From assembly GCA_902564695.1 (NCBI GenBank), contig CACFCB010000005.1:1-58521 (forward strand): DNA of 58,521 bases. The letters run 5' to 3'. Origin of the DNA: an uncultured Prochlorococcus sp. GTDB taxonomy: Bacteria; Cyanobacteriota; Cyanobacteriia; PCC-6307; Cyanobiaceae. A program made the translations under genes and the position numbers. The notes under the pieces were generated by a model, which was not told the origin of the DNA, did no database searches, and saw nothing but the letters and a program-made list of their open reading frames with translations. This document shows, piece by piece, positions 2,254-40,944 of this stretch (positions within the stretch are counted from its first letter, which is position 1; the number at the start of each line of letters is the position of its first letter).

Positions 2254-2583
2254 ATGAAGAGAAATAATATTAAAAAATCATTAGAGTATGTATCTCTTTC
2301 ACTCGTTCTCTCATTTTTCTTTCTTCATAATATTTACTTAGTATGTACTGGGATTATTCTATCCCTTTATGAAATAAATAAATTTTCAATAAATAATTGC
2401 ATTAGTTTTCAAAGAAAAGACGAGATCAATAAAAGAAATAAACTTATTATCCAAGAGGAAAGAAATGGCAATAAAGATCGTCAATCGAATAAAAAAGAAT
2501 CGGCTCTGAGACTAGCCGAGAGAATAGAAGAATTAGGTTTTATACCATCGATGGAAAATATTGATGATACTAATGCTGCTTAG
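2254..2583 (+). CDS. Small membrane-anchored hypothetical protein
   Basis: A 109-residue protein with a hydrophobic segment at residues 11-38 (YVSLSLVLSFFFLHNIYLVC and following) and a charged cytoplasmic-type tail (EERNGNKDRQSNKKESALRL) ending in AERIEELGFIPSMENIDD. It is the last member of the tightly packed run that starts at 1600. Function unknown. The conserved-looking LAERIEELGFIPS tail suggests a real gene. Confidence 0.55.
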   Translation: MKRNNIKKSLEYVSLSLVLSFFFLHNIYLVCTGIILSLYEINKFSINNCISFQRKDEINKRNKLIIQEERNGNKDRQSNKKESALRLAERIEELGFIPSMENIDDTNAA

Positions 2584-2685
2584 CCAAAGTATCAACATTG
2601 ATTAATGTATATTCCTATTATTCCATTCGATATCACTGTACAAATATATATATAAAAGGTACTTTAAGGTATATACATAAAATTA

Positions 2686-2880
2686 ATGAATCGTAAAAAC
2701 CAAAATATAGAGAAAATATTAGTAAAAGGATTATCTCATATTTTAAAACGGACAATTGAAGTTAGCCCAGGTGATCAATTAGCTATTGCTCAAGAGTATA
2801 AAGAATGGATTAATTGCATTTCAGAAAGTGATTTCTCAGAACAAGAAATATTAGTCATAGATAATTATACATTTGGATAA
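2686..2880 (+). CDS. Small hypothetical protein
   Basis: A 64-residue acidic protein (MNRKNQNIEKILVKGLSHIL...), soluble, with no motif I recognise. It stands alone about 100 bases after the coupled run and is followed by the 48-base palindrome at 2952. Start is the first ATG in the frame. It could be a chance frame. Confidence 0.4.
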   Translation: MNRKNQNIEKILVKGLSHILKRTIEVSPGDQLAIAQEYKEWINCISESDFSEQEILVIDNYTFG

Positions 2881-2951
2881 ATTTATTGAAAAAATATTTG
2901 ATAACCTCTATCTAAAGAGTTAACACTAATCATCAATTTACTATAGGCCTC

Positions 2952-2999
2952 TATCACTTACCTTCTGTAGTACAGCTGTACTACAGAAGGTAAGTGATA
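2952..2999. repeat. 48-base perfect palindrome
   Basis: The 24-base halves (TATCACTTACCTTCTGTAGT + ACAG, then the exact complement) meet at 2975/2976 with no loop and no mismatch. It sits between the convergent genes ending at 2880 and 3120, so a two-way transcription terminator is possible, but there is no T tract. The core AGTACAGCTGTACT (2969-2982) also fits the cyanobacterial LexA-box pattern RGTACNNNDGTWCB as I remember it. That match is partly a consequence of being palindromic. Confidence 0.85.
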
Positions 3000-3119
3000 T
3001 TAAATAAAATCTACCCTTCAAAATCACAATTGTGTTGTATGAACTTTACATATAATCTTTCGTTTATTATTCAAATATTTTTTTTGTATTAACTAAATAA
3101 ATATCCAAAAATACGATTT

Positions 3120-3344
3120 TTAATTATTATTTTTTTCAGGAATTTCTTTATACAAACTCGGGGCAATTATTAAAAATAATGCCCACCAAGCAAGAATAAA
3201 AATACCTACTACTACAGTTAGTATTATATTATGAAAGTACGTCCAGACTAAACTTATAATTAAGATCCCAAAAGTAATAATTGACCAAGGCTGACACCAG
3301 CAAGGCTTTATATCCCAAAAACTTTTTCTAGAATTAGCTTCCAT
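3120..3344 (-). CDS. Small conserved cyanobacterial membrane protein (DUF6737-like)
   Basis: A 74-residue protein with an N-terminal FWDIKPCWCQPWSIITFGI block and two hydrophobic helices (about residues 20-37 and 41-62). The WD.KP.WCQPWSI motif is one I associate with a small membrane family widespread in cyanobacteria, likely DUF6737. Its role is unknown. It lies in the thylakoid or plasma membrane by prediction and ends in a charged tail (KEIPEKNNN). Confidence 0.65.
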   Translation of the reverse strand: MEANSRKSFWDIKPCWCQPWSIITFGILIISLVWTYFHNIILTVVVGIFILAWWALFLIIAPSLYKEIPEKNNN

Positions 3345-3383
3345 TAAAAATAGATGAAATAGTTAACTCTAATAAATTTTAAA

Positions 3384-3782
3384 CTATTCAAATGATTTCT
3401 CCTTTTCAAAAGCTTCATTTTTAGTCGCTTCTTGATCTTCTCCTAAACCTTTATCGACTTCTATAACTTCATCTTTAGTCGCTTCTTGATCTTCTCCTAA
3501 ACCTTTATCAACTTCTATAACTTCATCTTTAGTCGCTTCTTGATCTTCATTAATAGGTTTAATTTCTACAATATTCTCAATGGAAGCAGAAGTTTCGCTC
3601 GTTGTAAGAATTTGAGTAACGTCTTTCTCTCCATCTGAATCAGAGCCTTTAAGCAAAAACTTTAAAACATACCGAAGAGAAACAAACAAAGCAATTGGGA
3701 GAACTAATCCTAACAGCAATTTATAGAGAATTACCCCTATGCCAAAAACTGCGATAGCTATAAGAATGTTTTTGTTCCTCAT
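3384..3782 (-). CDS. Membrane-anchored protein with acidic tandem-repeat tail
   Basis: A 132-residue protein with two N-terminal hydrophobic stretches (residues 5-20 and 22-45: ILIAIAVFGIGVILYKLLLG and following). The acidic tail consists of two and a half copies of an 18-residue unit (EDQEATKDEVIEVDKGLG). The repeats are almost identical at DNA level, so they are young. No enzyme motif. Probably a small anchored protein with a disordered tail on one face. It sits 40 bases upstream of the DUF6737-like gene on the same strand. Confidence 0.55.
   Translation of the reverse strand: MRNKNILIAIAVFGIGVILYKLLLGLVLPIALFVSLRYVLKFLLKGSDSDGEKDVTQILTTSETSASIENIVEIKPINEDQEATKDEVIEVDKGLGEDQEATKDEVIEVDKGLGEDQEATKNEAFEKEKSFE
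3421..3549. repeat. 54-bp in-frame tandem repeat, about 2.4 copies
   Basis: Unit 1 is 3421-3474, unit 2 is 3475-3528, and a 20-base partial unit follows from 3529. Units 1 and 2 differ by one base (TATCG versus TATCA). Each unit encodes 18 residues of the acidic tail of the gene at 3384-3782, so copy-number change would keep the frame. Confidence 0.9.
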
Positions 3783-3949
3783 ATGATCTATTTTTAATAT
3801 GCTCTAAATCTAAGCTATTTCTGAGCTATCTACATCACAAGTGCTTAAGGCAATGTCTATTTAAATAATCTAGATTAGAAATATCAGCAAACAATTACAG
3901 GTTAATACAAGAGAAAGAGTTCAGAAAATTCTTCATTTTATCTTATTGA

Positions 3950-4322
3950 GTGAAAGTTCCATCTAGAGAAGAGTGGGAATCTTTATACCATAAACAAGGA
4001 AAATTCAAAGACCCCACCCAAGAAAGAAATGGTATTGAAGTATATAAAGGCCCAAGATGGATTAATAAACAGATGTGATGATATTGATCTAGAGTCAAAT
4101 TCAATCGCAATAAGCAAGAACATTGCATTTATTGAATGGACAATGGGATTAAAAATAAACGGATTCGAATTTCTATATAATGCAACAACAAGATTAATTT
4201 TAGATGAGGACGGCAAGGTAAAAGAACATAGAGATTATTTTGATTTTTGCTCTAGTACTTTTGGAAAAATACCAATCATAGGTAGTTTTATAAGATGTCT
4301 ATACTCAAGATTTGTTGACTGA
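3950..4322 (+). pseudogene. Broken SnoaL/NTF2-like protein
   Basis: Two frames together read as a cyanobacterial NTF2/SnoaL-like protein. From 3950: VPSREEWESLYHKQGKFKDP, then TQERNGIEVYKGPRW, ending at TGA near 4076. From the other frame: CDDIDLESNSIAISKNIAFI, EWTMGLKINGFEFLYNATTR, then LDEDGKVKEHRDYFDF and GSFIRCLYSRFVD. The EHRDYFD block is typical of the family. A net +1 shift is needed near 4070. A stop (3947-3949) lies right before the first codon, so the 5' end is probably also missing. The intact family is about 130-160 residues. Confidence 0.65.
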
Positions 4323-4660
4323 AATCATTAATCTCAAACAAACTCATAAGATTTCTCAATTAATTTCTTACTTTTTCAGAGAAATAATTGATATTTTAAA
4401 TATTAGAAAAAGTTCAAGAAATTATTAATCTCTAAGGTTGGGCTAAGAAATAATAATGAATAAACCGAAATAAAAATTCTAATTACATACGAGCAAAGAA
4501 AATTCACCAATTAGTTAATATGTACCAATATGTTTGATTGTTTTGTTCATTCCATAAATCAAAATCTTATTAGCCATAACAATAGGGGTACTTCTAAATC
4601 TAATGGGAACGTTAGTAGAAATAATCAAAGAAACCTATGACCATAAAGAATGCATAGAAA
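4323..4660. other. Gene-free, AT-rich stretch
   Basis: I see no supported coding frame, RNA gene or strong hairpin here. It lies between two broken genes and is probably decayed coding DNA. Confidence 0.4.
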
Positions 4661-4936
4661 TTGCCAATAGCCTTTGTTTTAAAGGGGGCATGCACTAGAC
4701 ATAATTATCAAAATGATACTCTTTTACTCTATATAAGTTATGCAGATGAGATTATCAAATACATTTCAGAAAAACTTGGATATTCCTTTCTTTCTAATCT
4801 TGCTAGAGATTTTGGATCACAACTAAAAGACAATCAAGATAGATTTTCATAGAAAGAGGTAGTATCAGTTTGTCCAAATAAAGACGACTATAAATATGCT
4901 CTTGTATGGAAGGAAATTCATAGATCTAGTAGCTAA
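4661..4936 (+). pseudogene. Possible gene remnant with internal TAG
   Basis: The frame from 4661 gives YADEIIKYISEKLGYSFLSN and LARDFGSQLKDNQDRFS, a TAG at 4850-4852, and then, still in frame, KEVVSVCPNKDDYKYALVW and KEIHRSSS before TAA at 4934. The continuous protein-like composition on both sides of the TAG suggests one interrupted gene. I do not recognise the family, and it may be chance. Confidence 0.3.
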
Positions 4937-5398
4937 TGAAAAAAGTTTAGAAATTTAATAATGATTACAAGTTTTATACTCAATTAAAAAAAAAATCGTT
5001 TTATATCGCGACCAAGAAAAAATACTATTTAATACTGTAAAGAAAGTCAACTAAGGATCTCATTCAAGGGGGATGGAAAAGGATAGAAACTAAAAAGAAG
5101 AAAAACATTGAACCTGTAATCCCATAAAATTAAATTTGTATTTCCTCCAAAATATCTTAAAACCAATTGTATAATGATTTAGTATTACTTTGTCTATTCA
5201 TTAATATAAAATAACCATAATATTATATAAGGTAAATGGAATTATCACATTTTGATTGAAAAAATATAAAAATTATTAAATCCATTCTAAATCCTTCTAG
5301 AAATAAGCGTTTCATAAATTAAATCTAAAAATTAGCCTCAAAACTCAATGAATAAAAAACACTTGTCAGAATAGGTTATTTAAAATTACATAAAGATA
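4937..5398. other. Gene-free, AT-rich stretch
   Basis: No credible coding frame on either strand and no RNA gene seen. It continues the decayed zone that starts near 3.95 kb. Confidence 0.4.
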
Positions 5399-5599
5399 TT
5401 GAAAAGTGATCTCACTGTAGAAGAAATTATTTCAGTTACGATTAATACTATCTTAATTAAGATGTCAGAAATAAAAAGAGTTGATAGGTCAGTTCTTTAT
5501 CCAGAGTTTAAAGAATTGATCATAAAATCTGAAGAGATTGATCAAAGTCAAGAAGTTTTATGCCTACGATATTTTAAAAATGATCGAGAACCCAAATAG
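5399..5599 (+). CDS. Small hypothetical protein (doubtful)
   Basis: A 66-residue frame opening with TTG (KSDLTVEEIISVTINTILIK...) with an amphipathic, mostly helical composition. There is no good ribosome site, no ATG near the 5' end and no family match that I recognise. It could be the C-terminal piece of a lost gene. Confidence 0.3.
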   Translation: MKSDLTVEEIISVTINTILIKMSEIKRVDRSVLYPEFKELIIKSEEIDQSQEVLCLRYFKNDREPK

Positions 5600-5650
5600 C
5601 CCTATTATCCTCAATTTAAATCTAAATGTATTAGCATAAAGTAAAAAAAA

Positions 5651-5926
5651 ATGTTTACATCATTTTTCACTTTTATTTTCTCAACCCTACTATGGGTTCA
5701 AGTACCTCAGTGGAACGATAATTGGGCGAAATGTGCAGTGGATGTTCCTGATAGTGCTTGCCATTGGTATATTGCTTCGCCAGATAACACATTCGGGAAA
5801 GGATTTGACTGGGCAACTGCGCCTTGGTTTGACGCGAATGGACTAAACGATGTTGCTAAAATTTCATCGAAAACAGTATTAGAAAAATTACAAAATAAGG
5901 GTATTAAAAATAAATTAATTTCATAA
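5651..5926 (+). CDS. Small secreted or anchored hypothetical protein
   Basis: A 91-residue protein. Residues 1-16 (MFTSFFTFIFSTLLWV) form a short hydrophobic signal or anchor. The next part is rich in Trp and carries two Cys (VPQWNDNWAKCAVDVPDSAC, then HWYIASPDNTFGKGFDWATA), which could form a disulfide outside the cytoplasm. The tail is basic (KGIKNKLIS). No known family. The ordered, aromatic-rich middle suggests a real gene. The A-rich leader before the ATG holds no clear Shine-Dalgarno site. Confidence 0.55.
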   Translation: MFTSFFTFIFSTLLWVQVPQWNDNWAKCAVDVPDSACHWYIASPDNTFGKGFDWATAPWFDANGLNDVAKISSKTVLEKLQNKGIKNKLIS

Positions 5927-5953
5927 TTATGAGTGCAAAATTTAAATAAAAAA

Positions 5954-31321: not shown

Positions 31322-31425
31322 AGATAGTTCCCGACTAATCTTCTCTATTTAAAGATTATCTCTCGACTAATCACATAGGGTAAATTTCTTTTAAAAGTTA
31401 AACCTTAGTGAAAGATATAATCTTT

Positions 31426-33351
31426 ATGAATAGATCCTTTTTCAAATCAAGAGATGTGACTGAAAGAAAAGTAGAGCAAAAGAAAAATTTCACTGAGATA
31501 AAAACATTTCCAGTTCCATTTCCTTTAGAAGAAATTAAAGATAATATTATAGTGAATACAACTAAACCTTCTCAAACTCATAAAGAAGAATTAATTAAAC
31601 AAGCCTTAAAGTTCCATTCAGAAGGAAACATTTCAGAAGCGGCAAAATATTATCAATATTTTATAAACAAAGGTTTGAAAGATTACAGAGTCTTTTCTAA
31701 TTATGGAGTAATTTTATTAGATATTGGTAAGTTTCGAAAAGCAGAAATATTAACTCGTAAAGCAATTGAACTTAAACCTGATTTCCCAGATGCCCATGCC
31801 AATCTAGGCATCATATTAAAAGATCTTGGCAAATTAAAAGAAGCAGAGCTATCACAACGCAAAGCTATTGAACTTAAACCTAATTTTGCAAATGCTCATT
31901 CCAATCTAGGCATTATATTAAGAGGTCTCGGGAAATCAAAAGAAGCAGAACTATCACATCGCAAAGCAATTGAACTGAACCCTAATTTCGCAGATGCTTA
32001 TTCCAATCTAGCAATCATATTAAAAGATCTTGGGAAACTAAAAGAAGCAGAATTATCACAACAAAAAGCAATTCAAATTAATCCTAATCTCGCAATTTCT
32101 CATTATAATCTTGGAAACATTTTAAAAGATCTTGACAAGTTAAAAGAAGCAGAACTATCTCATCGTAAAGCAATTGAACTTAACCCTGATTTCGCAGATG
32201 CTCATTCCAATCTAGGAAGCATCTTAAAAGATCTTGGAAAATTCAATGAAGCAGAATCATCACATCGCAAAGCAATTCAAATTAATCCTAATCTCGCAAT
32301 TTCTCATTATAATCTTGGAAACATATTAAAAAATCTTGGCAAGTTAAAAGAAGCAGAACTATCTCATCGTAAAGCAATTGAACTTAACCCTGATTTCGCA
32401 AATGCTCATACGAATTTAGGAACAATATTAGAAGAGATTGGAAAACGAGAAGAAGCAATCAAGTATCTTATTAAGGCCGTTGAATTAGAGCCTGAAAAAG
32501 TTATTGCAATGAAAAATTTAGTTATGTTTTTATGTTTCAATAACAAATACGAACTAGCATTAAAATATCTACAAAAAAATAAATCTGAGGAATGTCAGAG
32601 TCTATATTTGGGCTGTTTATTATCTTTAGATAGAGAACAAGAATTTTATAAAAAGTATAACGAATTATCTAATAGAAAAATTTGCAATGCTGATATTGGA
32701 GGAATAGTAGAACATGCCAATATTATTTATCAAAGAAAAATCCACTCACCGTTTTGTAATGAATCTATTAAATATGTTCTATGTGAAAAAATAAATGAAG
32801 ACGCCTTCAGTGAAAATGACTTAAATCAACTGATTTCTTTTATAAAGAAAGATAGAACAAATATGAGGGCTCAAAAAACTCTTCATGGTGGTGTTCAAAC
32901 ATCAGGTAATTTATTTTCATTAGATTATCCATATATTAAGTCGGTTCAAAAAGCCTTAGAGGAAAAGATTGAAAGTTATAAAAATAAATTTAAAGATAGC
33001 AACCAAGGGTTTATTAATAATTGGCCTAAACATTATGAACTGCGTTCATGGATGATCAGTATGAAAAAAGGTGGATTTCTAAAGCCGCATAATCATGAGT
33101 ATGGATGGATTACTGGAAGCTTCTACCTTAAGGTGCCAAAACGGTCTGAGAATGACAATGCAGGATGCATAGCCTTTAGCTATCAAGGTCCTAGATATCC
33201 TAATAAAAACAAAAATTTTAATTTAACTATTCAAACAATCGAAGCCAGAGACATTTGTATATTCCCTTCCTCTTTATTCCATCAAACAATCCCTTTTCAT
33301 AGTAAAGAAGAGAGGATATGTTTTGTCTTTGATTTAATACAAAAAACATAA
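31426..33351 (+). CDS. TPR protein with C-terminal 2OG-Fe(II) oxygenase-like domain
   Basis: About 641 residues from ATG 31426; GTG 31408 is the alternative. Near the N-terminus lies FPVPFPLEEIKDNIIVNT, a motif repeated in the TPR protein at 39085. Then comes the shared cap (ALKFHSEGNISEAAKYYQYF; VFSNYGVIL) and about ten 34-residue TPRs, several nearly identical at DNA level. Residues about 490-641 look like a putative 2OG-Fe(II) oxygenase: KTLHGGVQTSGNLF, LRSWMISMKKGGFLKPHNHE, GWITGSFYLKVP and IFPSSLFHQTIPF, with candidate iron-binding His in KPHNHE and SLFHQT. Substrate unknown. A remnant of another C-terminal domain follows it. Confidence 0.82.
   Translation: MNRSFFKSRDVTERKVEQKKNFTEIKTFPVPFPLEEIKDNIIVNTTKPSQTHKEELIKQALKFHSEGNISEAAKYYQYFINKGLKDYRVFSNYGVILLDIGKFRKAEILTRKAIELKPDFPDAHANLGIILKDLGKLKEAELSQRKAIELKPNFANAHSNLGIILRGLGKSKEAELSHRKAIELNPNFADAYSNLAIILKDLGKLKEAELSQQKAIQINPNLAISHYNLGNILKDLDKLKEAELSHRKAIELNPDFADAHSNLGSILKDLGKFNEAESSHRKAIQINPNLAISHYNLGNILKNLGKLKEAELSHRKAIELNPDFANAHTNLGTILEEIGKREEAIKYLIKAVELEPEKVIAMKNLVMFLCFNNKYELALKYLQKNKSEECQSLYLGCLLSLDREQEFYKKYNELSNRKICNADIGGIVEHANIIYQRKIHSPFCNESIKYVLCEKINEDAFSENDLNQLISFIKKDRTNMRAQKTLHGGVQTSGNLFSLDYPYIKSVQKALEEKIESYKNKFKDSNQGFINNWPKHYELRSWMISMKKGGFLKPHNHEYGWITGSFYLKVPKRSENDNAGCIAFSYQGPRYPNKNKNFNLTIQTIEARDICIFPSSLFHQTIPFHSKEERICFVFDLIQKT
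32071..32415. repeat. 204-bp tandem duplication inside the TPR array
   Basis: The segment starting ATTCAAATTAATCCTAATCT at 32071 recurs at 32275, an offset of 204 bases or exactly two TPR units. The second copy remains almost identical to about 32405, after which the sequences diverge. It keeps the reading frame and points to recent expansion of the array by unequal recombination. Confidence 0.85.
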
Positions 33352-33554: not shown

Positions 33555-34040
33555 TTATAGACCTAATCCAACACCTCTAGCCATAAGAGTCGCCAAAAAG
33601 GGTATCGAGGCAAACCCAATAAGTTCAATATTGATTATCAATCTTAGTCTTGAAACTAGATTCTGACTAACTTGTGGGAGAGCCCCCTTACTTAGAGGTA
33701 AAGCCCATAAAACATAAGTAATTGTTGGATAAAGAGATAAAGAACCAACCAAAGCAAAGATGATTATCTTTGTCCAAAAAAATGGATTTTGAGTATAGAA
33801 TTCTGATCCCTGACCAAACTTTAAAACTCTATAAATCCCACTAACGAGAAGAGCAACCCCGGCAATTCCATAAATGACATCAGCTACAACCATAGATATT
33901 GCTTCTTGCCTATTTGGATCAGGCTTCAATGAAATACGTTCATATATCAATGCTCCAAAACAAACCATAAAGCTCAAATAATGGATATAAGCAACAGCAG
34001 CTGATTTAATCAAGTCAAAAGGAAGAATCATTTCAATCAC
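33555..34040 (-). CDS. DUF2214-type membrane protein
   Basis: 161 residues with four predicted helices: AAVAYIHYLSFMVCFGALIY, SMVVADVIYGIAGVALLVSG, KIIIFALVGSLSLYPTITYV and LIINIELIGFASIPFLATLM. The layout, with His in helix 1 and the polar loop LKFGQGSEFYTQNPFFW, is what I recall of DUF2214, a family of small bacterial membrane proteins of unknown function. ATG 34040 is used; a second in-frame ATG lies 9 bases later. Confidence 0.7.
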   Translation of the reverse strand: MIEMILPFDLIKSAAVAYIHYLSFMVCFGALIYERISLKPDPNRQEAISMVVADVIYGIAGVALLVSGIYRVLKFGQGSEFYTQNPFFWTKIIIFALVGSLSLYPTITYVLWALPLSKGALPQVSQNLVSRLRLIINIELIGFASIPFLATLMARGVGLGL

Positions 34041-34291
34041 AATTAAATCATTGTTGTCAATTTATACGTTAGCAAAAATCATTAATCACAGTAAAGGAAG
34101 TCAGATAAGCAATCCATAGAAAGGTCATTAATCAAAAAAGCATCAATATATTGATACCAATTCACATACTCAAGAGTGATAGTCATGAATACTCCTAAAG
34201 TTCTCTATAGATATGAGAGCTGTTACAAGTATTTCAAAAAAAATCGTCAAGCAAGTTTATTGGACTAATTTATTCTTATTTCAAATAAGTT

Positions 34292-34687
34292 ATGAAAGAA
34301 AAACTAAAGAAGTCTCTTCTTCTCATTACCTCATCAATTTTCATTCTGCTAACAATACTCATTGGTATTAATATAGAGATAGTATCTGCCTCGGAAGTTG
34401 AGTCTTCTAGTCTTATCAAAAAAGTATCAAAATCTTATACAAAAAAGTTTTGCAATGCAATCGCATTTGGACTTTCAAAAGAGAGTGCGATGAACTTTTC
34501 AATAAAAGAAAACAAACAAGTATTTGAGAAAAGAAAAGGTATGGAAAAAATTAATAGAGACCTACTGGCAGAAGAAATTTCTACTTCTGTTGTAGAACAA
34601 TGTGGATATCCAATCAATCTATCTGGAGAAAAAGGTATTAAAGAGTTCAAAAGTTATTATCTATCAAAAGATAGTGAATCATTCTAA
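34292..34687 (+). CDS. Secreted hypothetical protein
   Basis: 131 residues. A signal peptide is clear (MKEKLKKSLLLITSSIFILL, then TILIGINIEIVSAS). The mature part (SLIKKVSKSYTKKFCNAIAF, GLSKESAMNFSIKENKQVFE, LAEEISTSVVEQCGYPINLS) holds two Cys that could pair. A secreted or periplasmic protein of unknown role, of a type I have seen only in picocyanobacteria. Confidence 0.6.
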   Translation: MKEKLKKSLLLITSSIFILLTILIGINIEIVSASEVESSSLIKKVSKSYTKKFCNAIAFGLSKESAMNFSIKENKQVFEKRKGMEKINRDLLAEEISTSVVEQCGYPINLSGEKGIKEFKSYYLSKDSESF

Positions 34688-35609: not shown

Positions 35610-36035
35610 AATTTTATTTTGATAACCTATACAACTTGGCAATTCTAATTGATAAAGTCGACTTTTGATCCTGAGGGCCAGATTGATACGAAAGATATTT
35701 TTTCTCTAAATCAACTTCTATGACTGAACTTAAGAAGAATATTAAACATTAAAACATAAAAATGAACTTATCGAAAACCAATAAATATTTGTGATCATAA
35801 AAGCACAAATAAGAAATACGAAAGGAAAAGATTTACTAAAGAGGGCAAGCAAAATCTTTGTGATATCTTACTTAGATTTGGCAAAACAGAATTAAGCCAG
35901 ACTCCACCGCCTAGCAGTTACAGGACTAACGCAATAAATATTCGCAATCTTTTTCCAGCACCAATGTCATCCGAAGGCTCGGAATTTCTCTAGCGACTTC
36001 AATTTGAATTTTGAGAATGGACTCAAAAACAAAAA
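35610..36035. other. Gene-free stretch before the displaced tRNA-Ala fragment
   Basis: No supported gene on either strand. Short protein-like pieces occur (for example FDPEGQIDTKDIFSLNQLL ending near 35722), possibly debris of lost genes. Confidence 0.4.
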
Positions 36036-36083
36036 TGGAGCCAAGCGGACTCCAACCGCTGCCCCCCTGCATGCCATGTAAGC
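36036..36083. repeat. Displaced tRNA-Ala 3'-half (attachment-site copy)
   Basis: TGGAGCCAAGCGGACTC and the following bases repeat 38623 onward in the same orientation over about 46 bases, with three or four mismatches (36053, 36062 and the last few bases). It spans the tRNA 3' end, T arm, variable loop and the 3' side of the anticodon arm, and stops there. Confidence 0.85.
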
Positions 36084-36274
36084 AAATATTTTATAAAATC
36101 TAGTTATATCAAATGGTCTCAAGGAACAAGAAAAACAGTTAGAAAAGAAATTATAGCAGAATCCCATTGCATACGACACGCGTGTTCCAAAAGTGGTCAT
36201 TTTGCAGCTCAGTATTAAATGTAATTAATTACCCTGTAAAGTCATTCACACCAATAGATAACGATATTAAGGAT

Positions 36275-36582
36275 TCAACGATTAGCGACATTAAATCTTC
36301 GTGCTTGCTTAAGGTCTTTTCTATTAAAAAGGCTGCAGTAACCGCTTCTATCACAATCATATTGCTTCCCATTTTCATCAACTATTATTCCACCCCCATA
36401 GAGACCTCCATTAGGTGAATACAGTGGATCATCATCGTAATATTTACCAGAGGAATCCTGATAAGAATTACCTCCATATAAACCTGAACCAGAGCGATAA
36501 ACAGTCTCTGCCTGAGCAGTCGCTGATAGTAAAGAAACCCCTGAGACTGCCAAAGCAGAAACAACCGAAATTATTTATTCAT
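36275..36582 (-). pseudogene. Small Gly/Tyr-rich secreted protein with a broken start
   Basis: The ATG at 36582 is followed by AAT AAA and then TAA. If the A run had one more base, the frame would read MNKIISVVSALAVSGVSLLS then ATAQA, a normal signal peptide, and continue as ETVYRSGSGLYGGNSYQDSS, YYDDDPLYSPNGGLYGGGII and VDENGKQYDCDRSGYC. So a one-base deletion at 36572-36576 separates start from body. The only start left in the body frame is TTG 36553, which would lose half of the signal. About 102 residues if repaired. Function unknown. Confidence 0.65.
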
Positions 36583-36780
36583 TTTGCCAAGAATCAATAA
36601 GCTTAATCTTATGTAAATAAAATGACTGAAGTCGAGGAAATTTTTGTGTTTTATTAAGTCAAAGTTGTGAGGGAATATGCCCCCTTTCTTGTTCCTTCGT
36701 AAATTTTACTTACCTGATTTAAGTCCTTTCCACTCGCCTAACTTCTGCATTTTCTCCCATGCTTCGATTGCATTGGATTA

Positions 36781-36834
36781 GCTGTTTCAAAACAATGGCC
36801 CACTCATAAGAGCGTGCCATTGTTTTGAAACAGC
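36781..36834. repeat. 19-bp perfect inverted repeat
   Basis: GCTGTTTCAAAACAATGGC (36781-36799) and its exact complement (36816-36834) enclose a 16-base loop. It lies 21 bases after the stop of the GC-rich gene on the minus strand, so it may be its terminator. There is no T tract, and a transposon-end origin is also possible. Confidence 0.8.
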
Positions 36835-36855
36835 GTTGCTTAGAAGGGGCAGCCG

Positions 36856-37611
36856 TCAAACGCTAAAAAGATTGATCATCTGACCAGAATTGTCGCCGAT
36901 CATTGCTGTCATGAATTGAGCACCTTGCCAGTCACCCTCGCCGACTGCAAGAACAGGGTTTGGTGATTCCCCGAAGCTGTTCATCTCGGCGATTGATTCA
37001 AAGCGTTCGATCACAAACCTGTTCTCGCTTCTGAGGCGTTCACTGAAATCTTCATTTCCGGGGAAGATAACGGCTGCGTCACGGACAGTTCCAGCCGCTT
37101 CCTGGACTTGAAGACTGTTCATTGCAACTTGACCTTGGTGCATAAAGGAAGCACTCGTATCTAAGGACATTCGGTCTTCTAATGCGCTGGCACTACCGTT
37201 TTTCCAGACATTTAATGGAGAACCTTGACCTGTGATGGAGTCGCCGCCACTACCTGGCTTGAAGTGGTTGTCGCCAACGATCACGCTGCCTTTGGTGTCG
37301 ATGTCTTGAGGCTTGAAGACGCCTTCACCACTGATAGGACCAAGGATTCTTGGATCGCCATCGCCAAATGTCTCTAACAGAGAGTCACTCGAATCTGTGT
37401 CGTAACCCGTTTTGAACTCGGGATGAACAATGCTGATGTTTTCGTCTTTGGTTGGTTTGACGTTGGTTGTTCTGTTCAAGGCATCGAAGTTGCCGGTCAG
37501 CTCATCTGCTTGGAATTCAGCTTTGATGTCGCCCAACTTGATGAAGTCATCTGCTGCCTTAGGGCCAGCCTGGCGGGCATTGAGACCGTTCCATGTGGTG
37601 ATGTGAGGCAT
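36856..37611 (-). CDS. GC-rich gene of unknown function, likely acquired
   Basis: 251 residues, MPHITTWNGLNARQAGPKAA..., with no signal peptide or membrane segment. It is rich in Asp, Gly and Ser (FKTGYDTDSSDSLLETFGDG; KGSVIVGDNHFKPGSGGDSI), with a more ordered C-terminal part (GTVRDAAVIFPGNEDFSERL; RFVIERFESIAEMNSFGESP; LAVGEGDWQGAQFMTAMIGD). GC is about 50 percent in sampled lines, against roughly 35 for its surroundings. No family recognised. It could be a structural or secreted surface protein, but nothing shows this. A CRP-type operator and a TATAAC box lie upstream. Confidence 0.65.
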   Translation of the reverse strand: MPHITTWNGLNARQAGPKAADDFIKLGDIKAEFQADELTGNFDALNRTTNVKPTKDENISIVHPEFKTGYDTDSSDSLLETFGDGDPRILGPISGEGVFKPQDIDTKGSVIVGDNHFKPGSGGDSITGQGSPLNVWKNGSASALEDRMSLDTSASFMHQGQVAMNSLQVQEAAGTVRDAAVIFPGNEDFSERLRSENRFVIERFESIAEMNSFGESPNPVLAVGEGDWQGAQFMTAMIGDNSGQMINLFSV

Positions 37612-37675
37612 GGTTTGAAAGCGATGGAGGGTTGTTCCCTCTCGATGCAGGTATCATCTCCGAACCAAGTGATCC

Positions 37676-37717
37676 GTTATATGACCCAGATCAATCGTGA
37701 CTGTGATCTTAGTCACA
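37676..37717 (-). promoter_or_regulatory. CRP-type operator with class II promoter spacing
   Basis: TGTGATCTTAGTCACA at 37702-37717 is a perfect TGTGA-N6-TCACA site. On the minus strand TATAAC (37681-37676) follows, its centre 31 bases from the centre of the operator; class II CRP promoters have 32 between a site at -41.5 and the -10 box. Transcription would start near 37668, about 57 bases before the ATG of the GC-rich gene (37611). The CRP-type regulator gene ends 60 bases upstream. Confidence 0.7.
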
Positions 37718-37776
37718 AAGGCTTACAGCCGTACTCATGAGCCCAAGATATTTTGTTTTATATGCAGAAGATAAAC

Positions 37777-38478
37777 CTATTTATAATTTCCAAGGGGTAT
37801 CAAACTTCGCTTTATAAGAGGTTCTGGGCTAGTTATACGAAGAGATCCTTTGTTATCTTCTAAGATTCCTCTATTTTTTAACTTGTTTATGACTCTTGAA
37901 GTAGTTTCTCTTGATGAACCTGATAAAACACCTAGCTCTTTTTGAGCTAAAGGAGGAATAAAAGCTAATGAATCGTTGTTAATAGAGCTTTTACGAGCTA
38001 AATATGCTAATGAATTTAGAATACGAGAAGTAGCGTCACTAGTATGTAAAGCAAAGCGAAGATTTAGATCCCTTAATCGAGAAGCTTCAAGTTTTGCAAT
38101 TGTCAAAGCAAAGGCAACCTCCTTGTGCAGCAATGTTTCGAAAGGAGAAGAACGTAATTTCAATACTCGGCCAGGAGTAAGCGCAACAACATCAGCAGAT
38201 CGAGGTAAATCATCAAGCGCAGCCATTTCACCAAATAAATCATTTGTTCCAAGCACTGACATAACAACCTCAATACCATCAGCGGTATAAGTACGTACTT
38301 TCGCTAAACCTGAAAGTAAAACAAAAATGGTTTTTTCCCATTCTTCCTCCATTAAAAAAACTTGTTCGGCTGAATGAGTAGATACAAAATGACGGTCTAG
38401 TAACTTCGAACATTGTTCAATGGTCAAACAAGAAAAAAGTTGATATGCATTTAAATCTTCAGCGTTTATCTTAGTCAT
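37777..38478 (-). CDS. CRP/FNR-family transcription regulator, cAMP-pocket type
   Basis: About 233 residues from ATG 38478 (MTKINAEDLNAYQLFSCLTI); the frame opens at 38550. Residues about 10-130 form the cyclic-nucleotide domain, with phosphate cassette DLFGEMAALDDLPRSADVV: the FGE and RSA residues that hold cAMP in E. coli CRP are present. The C-terminal winged helix has ELGVLSGSSRETTSRVINKL, in which R-E-x-x-x-R matches the CRP residues that read TGTGA. No iron-sulfur Cys as in FNR. A perfect CRP site follows the gene. Lies immediately downstream of tRNA-Ala. Confidence 0.88.
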   Translation of the reverse strand: MTKINAEDLNAYQLFSCLTIEQCSKLLDRHFVSTHSAEQVFLMEEEWEKTIFVLLSGLAKVRTYTADGIEVVMSVLGTNDLFGEMAALDDLPRSADVVALTPGRVLKLRSSPFETLLHKEVAFALTIAKLEASRLRDLNLRFALHTSDATSRILNSLAYLARKSSINNDSLAFIPPLAQKELGVLSGSSRETTSRVINKLKNRGILEDNKGSLRITSPEPLIKRSLIPLGNYK

Positions 38479-38535
38479 AAGAAGTATTACCTGGCCAAGC
38501 GAAGAGGAACTAAATTCTAAGTAATAGAAGACATT

Positions 38536-38563
38536 AATAAAACTACTCATTATTAGTTTTATT
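38536..38563. repeat. Hairpin between tRNA-Ala and the CRP-type gene
   Basis: AATAAAACTA and TAGTTTTATT around 8 bases. On the minus strand it comes after tRNA-Ala and before the regulator; it may end the tRNA transcript or lie in the regulator leader. Confidence 0.5.
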
Positions 38564-38622
38564 CCCTATATATTGCTCTAATCTAATTTTCCTGAAAACC
38601 CTTGCTAATCCTTAAAAATCAA

Positions 38623-38695
38623 TGGAGCCAAGCGGACTCGAACCGCTGACCCCCTGCATGCCATGCAGGTGCTCTACCAGCTGAGCTATGGCCCC
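38623..38695 (-). tRNA. tRNA-Ala (TGC)
   Basis: 73 bases on the minus strand: GGGGCCATAGCTCAGCTGGT..., anticodon stem CCTGC/GCAGG with loop around TGC, T arm GGTTCGAGTCC, 3' end TCCA (no encoded CCA beyond the discriminator). The 3' half is duplicated at 36036. Confidence 0.97.
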
Positions 38696-39042
38696 AAATC
38701 GTTGATATGACTTTGATTTCAATCAATATCATCCAACCAAATTATTATACTTCAATAAAAGAGTGCATAATCGCAGCTACTTAAAAGTCTCCGATCTACG
38801 TGAAGGAAAAAAGAGAAAACCAGAGATTTTAAAAGGCTTGATAAAGACCTCAATACTTTTATTGATGGGGAGTGGTGGGAAGTTAGCAAATAAATTTATT
38901 ATCGATAGGTCTAGGAAGCTAATTACTTCTCTTTGTTGGCAGATGATCCCCTGCCAATTCAAAAAACAAAGTAAAGAAATGTCTCTTGAAAGTTTACAAG
39001 TAATTTAGATATATAATTTAGTTCTAATACAAACAAATAGAT
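38696..39042. other. Stretch between tRNA-Ala and the TPR-GT9 gene
   Basis: Open frames exist on both strands (plus 38763-39008, minus 38777-38962), but neither has a good start or a recognisable protein pattern. I do not call a gene here. Confidence 0.4.
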
Positions 39043-39084
39043 GTGACTCAGAGAAGAAAAGATCAAAAACAAGAAGGGCATAAC

Positions 39085-40944
39085 ATGAAAATATTCCCAG
39101 TTCCATTTACCCCAGATAAAATCATAGACAATATTACTATTTCAACTGATAATTCATTCAATACAAGTAAAGTACAAAAAAAAGATTCTAATATACCTAA
39201 ATTCACGATTCCATTTACTTTAGACAAACAAAAAGAAAATCTTATTATTAATAACAATAGACTTTCTAAATTTTCTAAAGAGCAAATAATTAATCAAGCA
39301 ATTAATTTTCATCTTGAAGGTAATATTCAAGAAGCGTCAAAATACTATAAATATTGTATTAATCATAGTTTTAGTGACCACATAATCTTTTCTAATTATG
39401 GAGTGATTTTAAAAGGTCTCGGAAAACTTAAAGAGGCTGAAGCAATGCAAAGAAAATCAATTAACATTAAGCCTGATTTCGCTGATGCATACTATAATCT
39501 TGGAAATACAATGATAGATCTTAATAAACTAAAAAAAGCAGAATCTTGCTATCGAAAAGCCATTAAACTCAGACCTGATTATGCAAAATACTATAATAAT
39601 TTGGGCAACTTATTGTTAGATCTTGGCAGAGCAGAAGAAGCAGAAGAATCACAAAGAAAAGCTATTCAAATTAATCCAGATTTTGCATTAGCTCATTGCA
39701 ATCTAGGTACGATTTTAAAAGATCTTGGTAAATTGAAAGAAGCAGAAATATCAACGCGTAAAGCAATTGAACTTAATCCTACTCTAGCCAATGCCCATAA
39801 CAACTTAGGAATTATTTTAAAGAACCTTGGTAAGCTAGATCTAGCAGAGATATCAATTCGAAAAGCTATTGATATCTCTGATCATTTTGCAGATGCTTAT
39901 TGTAATTTAGGAACTATATTAAAAGATCTTGGCAAACTAAATCAAGCAGAGCTATCAATTCGAAAAGCAATCAAGTTAAAACCTGATTTTTATGATGCAT
40001 ATTTTAATCTTGCTTTAATTGAACTAATTCAAGAAAATTATAAATCAGGCCTAGACAACTATGAATATAGATTTAAGAAGATACAACCAGTTATTATTCT
40101 AGCCAAACCAAAAATCAAAAGATTCAAAAATAGTAACTTAAATAAATTAGAAAAGCTTTTAATAGTTTGCGAACAAGGTTTAGGTGACACTCTTCAATAT
40201 ATGAGATATATTCCTCATTTAAGAAATCAAGGTTTTGATATTTCTTTTTGCGCTCAAAAGAAACTTCATTCCTTAATCAAATCCTCAGGTATTGATCCCT
40301 ATCCATTAACTCCAGAGCAAGCCAATCAATTCTCACAAGGAAAATGGATCCCATTGTTATCTTTACCAAAATATTTAAAAGTAAATCCAGAAAATCCAAT
40401 CGTTTGCAAGCCTTACATCTTTTCAAAGCCTGAACTAAAACAAAAGTGGAAAAATACACTATCTACCGAGAAGAAACCAATCATTGGTATTAATTGGCAA
40501 GGCAATAAAGAAATGGAAAAAACATATCAAGGAAGATCAATTCCTTTAGAAACATTTTCAATACTTCTTAATCAAGCTCAAATAACAATGCTTTCTCTCC
40601 AAAAAGGTTTTGGGTCAGAACAATTAGAGAAATGCTCATTTAAAAATAAGTTTGTAGAATGCCAAAAACAAATAGATTCTACTTGGGATTTCCTTGAAAA
40701 TGCTGCTATTATTGATAACTGTGATTTGATTATTACTTGTGATACATCAATAGCTCACTTAGCCGGTGGTATGGGAAAAAAAGTCTGGTTATTACTAAAA
40801 TATATACCATTTTGGACTTGGGGAGTATACTCAGAAAGTACCTTTTGGTATCCTTCAATGAGATTATTCCGACAAAAAGAAAAACAAAGCTGGCAAGAAG
40901 TAATGAATAAAGTATCAACTGAACTAAACAAAGAATTGAGATAA
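39085..40944 (+). CDS. TPR protein with C-terminal GT9-like glycosyltransferase domain
   Basis: 619 residues from ATG 39085, which has a good AAGGG ribosome site six bases upstream; the frame opens with GTG at 39043. The protein begins MKIFPVPFTPDKIIDNITIS and a second copy of the motif follows (PKFTIPFTLDKQKENLII). Then come the shared cap (AINFHLEGNIQEASKYYKYC; IFSNYGVIL) and about seven TPRs. The C-terminal domain has LLIVCEQGLGDTLQYMRYIP, IIGINWQGNKEMEKTYQGRS and CDLIITCDTSIAHLAGGMGK, the heptosyltransferase-like (GT9) pattern found in TPR-linked transferases. Substrate unknown. Probably co-transcribed with the DUF6165-like gene, 4 bases on. Confidence 0.85.
   Translation: MKIFPVPFTPDKIIDNITISTDNSFNTSKVQKKDSNIPKFTIPFTLDKQKENLIINNNRLSKFSKEQIINQAINFHLEGNIQEASKYYKYCINHSFSDHIIFSNYGVILKGLGKLKEAEAMQRKSINIKPDFADAYYNLGNTMIDLNKLKKAESCYRKAIKLRPDYAKYYNNLGNLLLDLGRAEEAEESQRKAIQINPDFALAHCNLGTILKDLGKLKEAEISTRKAIELNPTLANAHNNLGIILKNLGKLDLAEISIRKAIDISDHFADAYCNLGTILKDLGKLNQAELSIRKAIKLKPDFYDAYFNLALIELIQENYKSGLDNYEYRFKKIQPVIILAKPKIKRFKNSNLNKLEKLLIVCEQGLGDTLQYMRYIPHLRNQGFDISFCAQKKLHSLIKSSGIDPYPLTPEQANQFSQGKWIPLLSLPKYLKVNPENPIVCKPYIFSKPELKQKWKNTLSTEKKPIIGINWQGNKEMEKTYQGRSIPLETFSILLNQAQITMLSLQKGFGSEQLEKCSFKNKFVECQKQIDSTWDFLENAAIIDNCDLIITCDTSIAHLAGGMGKKVWLLLKYIPFWTWGVYSESTFWYPSMRLFRQKEKQSWQEVMNKVSTELNKELR

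Follow-up and report, generated by a model that had tools for sequence, protein, structure and literature searches.

The stretch of DNA studied here (58,521 nt from an uncultured Prochlorococcus sp., hereafter the window) contains a gene for a CRP-type regulator, a perfect TGTGA-N6-TCACA palindrome and a GC-rich gene, all next to a tRNA gene (Table 1). In the initial annotation, these three parts were read as one transferred, self-contained unit in which the regulator activates its neighbor from a class II promoter. This raises the question whether the palindrome is indeed an operator of the GC-rich gene and whether regulator and target belong together.

Sequence and predicted structure show that the regulator genuinely belongs to the CRP type. 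The residues on which it had originally been recognized are all present: FGE at 82-84 and RSA at 93-95 of the phosphate-binding cassette, as well as the recognition helix SRETTSR, which corresponds to the R-E-x3-R pattern for TGTGA. A Pfam search found both expected domains above cut-off (PF00027 cNMP_binding, 5e-17; PF13545 HTH_Crp_2, 8e-11). In an alignment of 16 orthologs, G83, E84, R93 and A95 of the binding pocket are invariant, and so are R190, E191 and R195 of the recognition helix. The AlphaFold2 model (pLDDT 90) has the GlxR-cAMP complex (4cyd) as its top PDB match. At the C-helix, our alignment places L138/N139, which are invariant within the clade, where E. coli CRP has T127/S128, its contacts to the adenine. 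Consequently, the cAMP specificity of the regulator is uncertain and another cyclic nucleotide is possible. In composition (GC 36%, GC3 21%) the gene is close to the window (GC 34%). Its nearest orthologs, at 63-64% identity, belong to another genus of the family (g30), while only two of the 41 genomes of the window's own genus encode an ortholog, namely the window's genome and G003 (39% identity). The presumed rarity of CRP-type regulators in this clade is thus supported.

Table 1. Features of the island and of the regulator-target intergenic region; positions refer to the window.
Feature	Position	Strand	Basis or remark
Imperfect copy of the tRNA-Ala 3' end, att-like island boundary	36031-36078	(-)	Direct repeat
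Inserted segment (2.6 kb) with regulator and target	36079-38621	.	Between tRNA-Ala and its 3'-end copy
GC-rich target, 251 aa, module-shuffled (mosaic) family	36856-37611	(-)	No double-glycine leader
Short hairpin, predicted 5' end of the mRNA	37622-37644	(-)	Stem in most of 24 leaders
Predicted transcription start	37646 (+/- 2 nt)	(-)	Inferred from spacing to the conserved -10
Predicted -10 element GATGAT	37653-37658	(-)	Family consensus GATRRT
TATAAC, -10 of the initial annotation	37676-37681	(-)	Private to the window copy
Operator 2, degenerate TGA-N6-TCA	37682-37693	(-)	22 bp from operator 1; predicted centre ~-41
Operator 1, perfect TGTGA-N6-TCACA, TGTGATCTTAGTCACA	37702-37717	(-)	Predicted centre ~-63; kept upstream of target homologs
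CRP-type transcription regulator, 233 aa	37777-38478	(-)	Pfam, orthologs, AF2 model
tRNA-Ala(GGC), insertion target	38622-38696	(-)	ARAGORN

The putative target is of a different nature. With 50% GC and a GC3 of 52%, it stands out from the 34% GC of the window. Searches of Pfam, NCBIfam, PHROGs and PDB sequences gave no match for the protein, the single-sequence AlphaFold2 model (pLDDT 31) was of no use, and the N-terminus (MPHITTWNG...) shows neither a double-glycine leader ending in GG or GA nor a signal peptide. Among the 41 genomes of the genus, the gene was found in the window's genome alone. Relatives in the 400 genomes of the family occur almost exclusively, and in several copies per genome, in the genus g35. 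Genomes of g35 are 2-3 Mb in size, and the named matches to the cassette described below are marine Synechococcus (e.g., UW105, UW140, AG-673-A03); in the named-genome collection the gapped pattern gave many chance matches in unrelated bacteria, and the Synechococcus records alone were used. Blocks of the protein are reordered among its relatives; residues 21-38, for example, lie downstream of block 86-155 in several of them. Two of its segments match the cores of double-glycine peptides with scores of 87 and 55, whereas shuffled sequences reached a maximum of 49. Furthermore, several of the mosaic proteins begin with what follows the double glycine in such peptides (MPHITTWN versus GG-APHITIWN; MGVFAKLDGI versus GG-GVFAKLDG), so that, as far as the sequences tell, they resemble such peptides with the leader left off. 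Right past the stop codon of the target, a strong inverted repeat of 25 bp (36781-36834; 92%, loop of 4 nt) is probably either its terminator or a small mobile repeat.

The palindrome between both genes was found exactly where it had been annotated. It is located 60 bp past the stop codon of the regulator, which lies upstream of the co-directional GC-rich gene, and it is the sole exact TGTGA-N6-TCACA of the window, against a mononucleotide expectation of ~0.06. Nearly all g35 copies of the target carry the same perfect site upstream (with a single mismatch in one copy); from operator to start codon, their DNA forms one conserved cassette. Operator 1 is thus not a chance occurrence. The same genome has another exact operator (C14:23905); it falls within a coding region that resembles, by eye, a ketoacyl synthase gene, lacks the cassette and was rejected as probably fortuitous.

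In contrast, the promoter geometry initially deduced from this site is probably wrong. The hexamer TATAAC does lie 31 bp from the operator, centre to centre, as described. However, a -10-like hexamer occupies this position in just 2 of 35 other cassettes, which instead conserve a degenerate second site and, further downstream, GATRRT. Aligning cassettes of several genera gave the following offsets from the first base of operator 1: TGA-N6-TCA at 24-35, GATRRT at 59-64, CATCG at 70-74, then a stem-loop and the ATG at ~107. Among 120 distinct ORF-facing operator sites, part of which were fetched with operator 2 as bait, 70 have TGA-N6-TCA at offset 24 and 64 have GATRRT at offset 59; at any other offset, either motif occurs at most once. 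Of the 35 non-redundant cassettes, which were chosen without regard to either element, 20 have the exact operator 2 at offset 24 and 19 have GATRRT at offset 59, and the information content of their alignment peaks at these two positions. The centre of operator 2 lies 22 bp, i.e., two helical turns, from that of operator 1 and ~21 bp before the -10; a distance of ~21-22 bp between CRP site and -10 is the class II distance and is reported for cyanobacterial CRP promoters by Xu and Su (2009; PMC2633013). GATRRT, which reads GATGAT in the window, is a weak -10. Taken together, the alignment points to a tandem-site CRP promoter, with a conserved in-phase second site and a -10 at fixed spacing, and we predict that the transcript starts near 37646 rather than near 37668. 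In most of 24 diverse leaders, single-sequence folding places a stem at the same position (mean z -2.4). Since RNAalifold predicted no pairs on the MAFFT alignment although the single sequences fold, this 5' hairpin is considered just probable.

The distribution of the cassette follows that of the regulator. The tandem operator was detected in 50 of the 400 family genomes, as opposed to none of the 400 for a reversed-pattern control, and 38 of these 50 encode regulator orthologs. Fisher's exact test, which ignores phylogeny, gave p values of 1e-21 for all regulator homologs and ~4e-30 for orthologs of at least 50% identity. Within the 41 genomes of the window's genus, the tandem operator is confined to exactly the two with a regulator ortholog, the window's own and G003. 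Only one cassette was found in the window's assembly (estimated to be 72% complete; 1.33 of 1.44 Mb examined). In Synechococcus-type genomes encoding both genes, homologs of the target are located far from the regulator, yet keep the operator, and thus the relation between regulator and target is one in trans. A conserved self-contained pair, as originally claimed, is not supported: the homolog search refuted the linkage, while it bore out the operator upstream of the homologs. The conserved operator cassette and its tracking of the regulator nevertheless make the proposed regulator-target relation likely. Four near-complete genomes (G044, G114, G266, and G308) contain one to three cassettes each, and a profile search found no regulator ortholog in them; hence the site can persist without the regulator. 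We read these cases as recent secondary loss, and rapid decay of sites after loss of CRP is described by Xu and Su (2009; PMC2633013). A viral origin was considered and rejected: neither IMG/VR nor phage records held relatives, and viral contigs held no cassette.

Both genes lie in a segment enclosed by tRNA-Ala and an imperfect copy of its 3' end, a feature that, like operator 2, had escaped the initial annotation. The direct repeat (52 nt) is 90% identical to 38614-38665, and its 48-nt core is 92-94% identical to tRNA-Ala of three congeners. In G003, the conserved flank (33561-34672) is followed after ~70 bp by tRNA-Ala, without the inserted segment, while other congeners have different, shorter DNA at this site. 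To judge from these sequences, the segment looks like a tRNA-integrated, tycheposon-like insertion with a duplicated tRNA 3' end that is absent in relatives. No integrase or replication module was recognized by eye among the ORFs of 36079-38621 (the smaller ones judged by inspection), and the segment is thus at most a remnant or cargo. The notion of one transferred unit holds insofar as both genes share this insertion. It fails in that regulator and target differ in GC, GC3 and nearest genera (g30 versus g35), which makes separate arrivals at one hotspot likelier than a single transfer. Judged by the conserved promoter cassette, regulator and target do belong together, though their sources seem to differ. 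The island also contains a small glycine/tyrosine-rich ORF of secreted type (36275-36553, minus strand); the start of its signal peptide seems to lie in a different frame, and thus it appears to be frameshifted or hit by a sequencing error. Large TPR proteins (31408-33351 and 39043-40944), of which many copies exist across the genus, flank the tRNA-Ala region.

Other explanations of the locus have to be weighed against this evidence. The initially annotated class II promoter could be real if the perfect site were the sole functional one, with TATAAC as -10, a start at ~37668 and the downstream elements as ancestral leftovers. In the window copy, no other hexamer comes closer to a -10 than TATAAC (5/6), which lies at class II distance and could have arisen by a recent AT mutation; for cyanobacterial promoters, a spacing of ~22 bp from CRP site to -10 is reported (PMC2633013). 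However, TATAAC, which overlaps operator 2 at its edge, is missing from nearly all related cassettes. Operator 2 and GATRRT, by contrast, are conserved, and the window copy has both in intact form; we therefore consider this promoter unlikely. That the palindrome is a mere chance match, an autoregulatory site of the regulator or a terminator is extremely improbable. Although single-site palindromes are expected at ~0.06 per window, the site follows the regulator gene instead of preceding it, and conservation of the whole surrounding cassette upstream of homologs in other genera contradicts such readings.

A relic operator would be another explanation: target and promoter would have come from Synechococcus, the regulator would have become their neighbor by accident of island assembly, and no control would be exerted in the present host. 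The difference in GC (50% versus 36%) and in the closest genera fits such a history, as do the genomes that have cassettes but no regulator. On the other hand, both half sites, operator 2 and the -10 are intact in spite of drifted leader bases, the reading frame and the recognition residues of the regulator are intact as well, and regulator and target adjoin in one island, in a genus otherwise devoid of both. We thus regard a relic as rather improbable, too.

If the cassette is indeed a CRP promoter, the genes behind it should hint at the function of the target. Classified by simple patterns and thus only approximately, they are mostly double-glycine peptides (MNNTELTLDQLxxIxGG...), RTX-like and pilin-like proteins and members of the mosaic family, besides other long, probably surface or secreted proteins; in G110, a histidine-kinase-like gene carries the operator. 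In the donor lineages, the products under this cassette are mainly peptides of secretion type, along with secreted or surface proteins. A role of the target in cell interaction, as a peptide or protein, is therefore most likely; from the company of its gene, our best guess would be an interaction protein or a secreted one. At one locus of G110 (L191, C1:1005000-1013000), two double-glycine peptide genes, almost identical to each other and preceded by identical cassettes, lie ~5 kb apart, which suggests a recent duplication of the whole promoter-plus-gene unit.

The remaining parts of such a circuit are encoded close to the regulator in other genomes. A CHASE2-type cyclase adjoins it in many of them, and at the four loci examined (G003, G222, G110, and G245) a three-gene exporter with a C39 peptidase (C39 ABC/HlyD/ABC, Pfam-confirmed) is located from a few to ~13 kb away. 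In the window's genome, contig C34 encodes the same exporter and a two-CAP_ED protein (51-65% identical to G110), followed by a double-glycine-type peptide. This glycine/proline-rich peptide right after the exporter (L360, 8059-8358, minus strand) has the leader LSLDELSGVAGG, and its reading frame shifts within the repeat region. Class III cyclases occur in 3 of the 41 genus genomes: two in the window's genome and others in G003 and G014. Thus, the cell has the parts for cAMP signaling and for exporting peptides, though not on the island itself. A Cache-type sensor cyclase of 586 aa (L236, contig C1, 4785-6545, minus strand), which within the genus apparently occurs in the window's genome alone, is a candidate source of the regulator's ligand. 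A CHASE2-type cyclase (L237, C3:80000-89974, 2509-5948) has as neighbors an ShlB-like protein and an MscS channel that carries a cyclic-nucleotide domain; G014, which has no regulator, encodes a similar cyclase. We take this group for a separate cyclic-nucleotide circuit.

Starting from the sequence, the conserved cassette, its co-occurrence with the regulator and the cyclases and exporter present in the genome, we propose that the island probably combines a CRP-family activator with one member of its regulon, driven by a tandem-site promoter starting near 37646. Cyclases encoded elsewhere in the genome would produce a cyclic nucleotide, probably cAMP, that loads the regulator. The loaded regulator would bind the perfect operator and, in a cooperative manner, also the degenerate site that follows 22 bp further on. 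From the class II position, the second dimer might then recruit RNA polymerase to the weak -10 GATGAT and activate transcription. The resulting transcript would begin with a small hairpin and continue into the coding region of the GC-rich protein. Against this model weigh the weak -10, the cassettes in genomes devoid of a regulator ortholog, the uncertain cAMP specificity, the single cassette of the window's assembly and the lack of a leader or signal peptide in the target. One might further speculate, albeit tentatively, that the cassette is a CRP-controlled mobile expression unit of marine picocyanobacteria, spread before a shared pool of short, shuffled peptide modules; these would either follow double-glycine leaders and be exported or, as in the mosaic genes including that of the window, be joined to the start codon with no leader between.

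The proposed circuit would name secretion-type peptides and shuffled proteins as a clear candidate for the output of the poorly understood cAMP-CRP system of marine picocyanobacteria. Their promoter is recognizable and can be read from any genome. Here, regulator, target, cyclases and exporter are held by a low-light Prochlorococcus-type genome from a lineage that is mostly devoid of CRP. If the mobile-cassette reading is true, a combinatorial repertoire of interaction proteins would stand under one cAMP switch, with parts and switch passed on via tRNA islands.

Tandem CRP-dependent promoters of E. coli are of the class III type, with two sites in phase. The predicted promoter resembles them in that its sites are two helical turns apart with one at the class II position, and differs in that its second site is strongly degenerate. 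In cyanobacteria, CRP regulons are those of SyCRP1 and AnCRPA/B, with further ones predicted in MIT9313, MIT9303, CC9311, and CC9605 (Xu and Su, 2009; PMC2633013). The accessible text of that study covers predicted sites in MIT9313, type IV pilus genes as PCC6803 targets and the loss of crp in many picocyanobacteria including the NATL strains. Protein family and TGTGA-N6-TCACA operator are the same as in the window, while the tandem-site promoter, the conserved leader and the control of double-glycine and mosaic genes were not found in that text.

For cyanobacteria, precursors of the double-glycine (bacteriocin) type and export clusters of group V are described (Wang et al., 2011; PMC3140520). 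In contrast to these precursors, the gene in the window has no leader, and promoters and cAMP are not mentioned in that paper; in the accessible literature, we found no link of CRP to double-glycine peptides via a defined promoter. Nevertheless, the cassette drives such precursors elsewhere, and the window's genome has a group V-like exporter and the two-CAP_ED protein. The association of cyclase and CRP in Synechococcus islands is already known: in the Syn_GI122 module of marine Synechococcus, adenylate cyclases are found close to CRP or to an MscS channel under cAMP regulation, together with cell-surface and CHAT proteins (PMC7522525). The island in the window consists of CRP and one target at tRNA-Ala, without a cyclase, and an operator cassette is not described for Syn_GI122. 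The partners, however, are the same: in many genomes CRP stands beside a cyclase, G003 has a CHAT-type neighbor, and the window's genome encodes a cyclase together with an MscS-cNMP protein.
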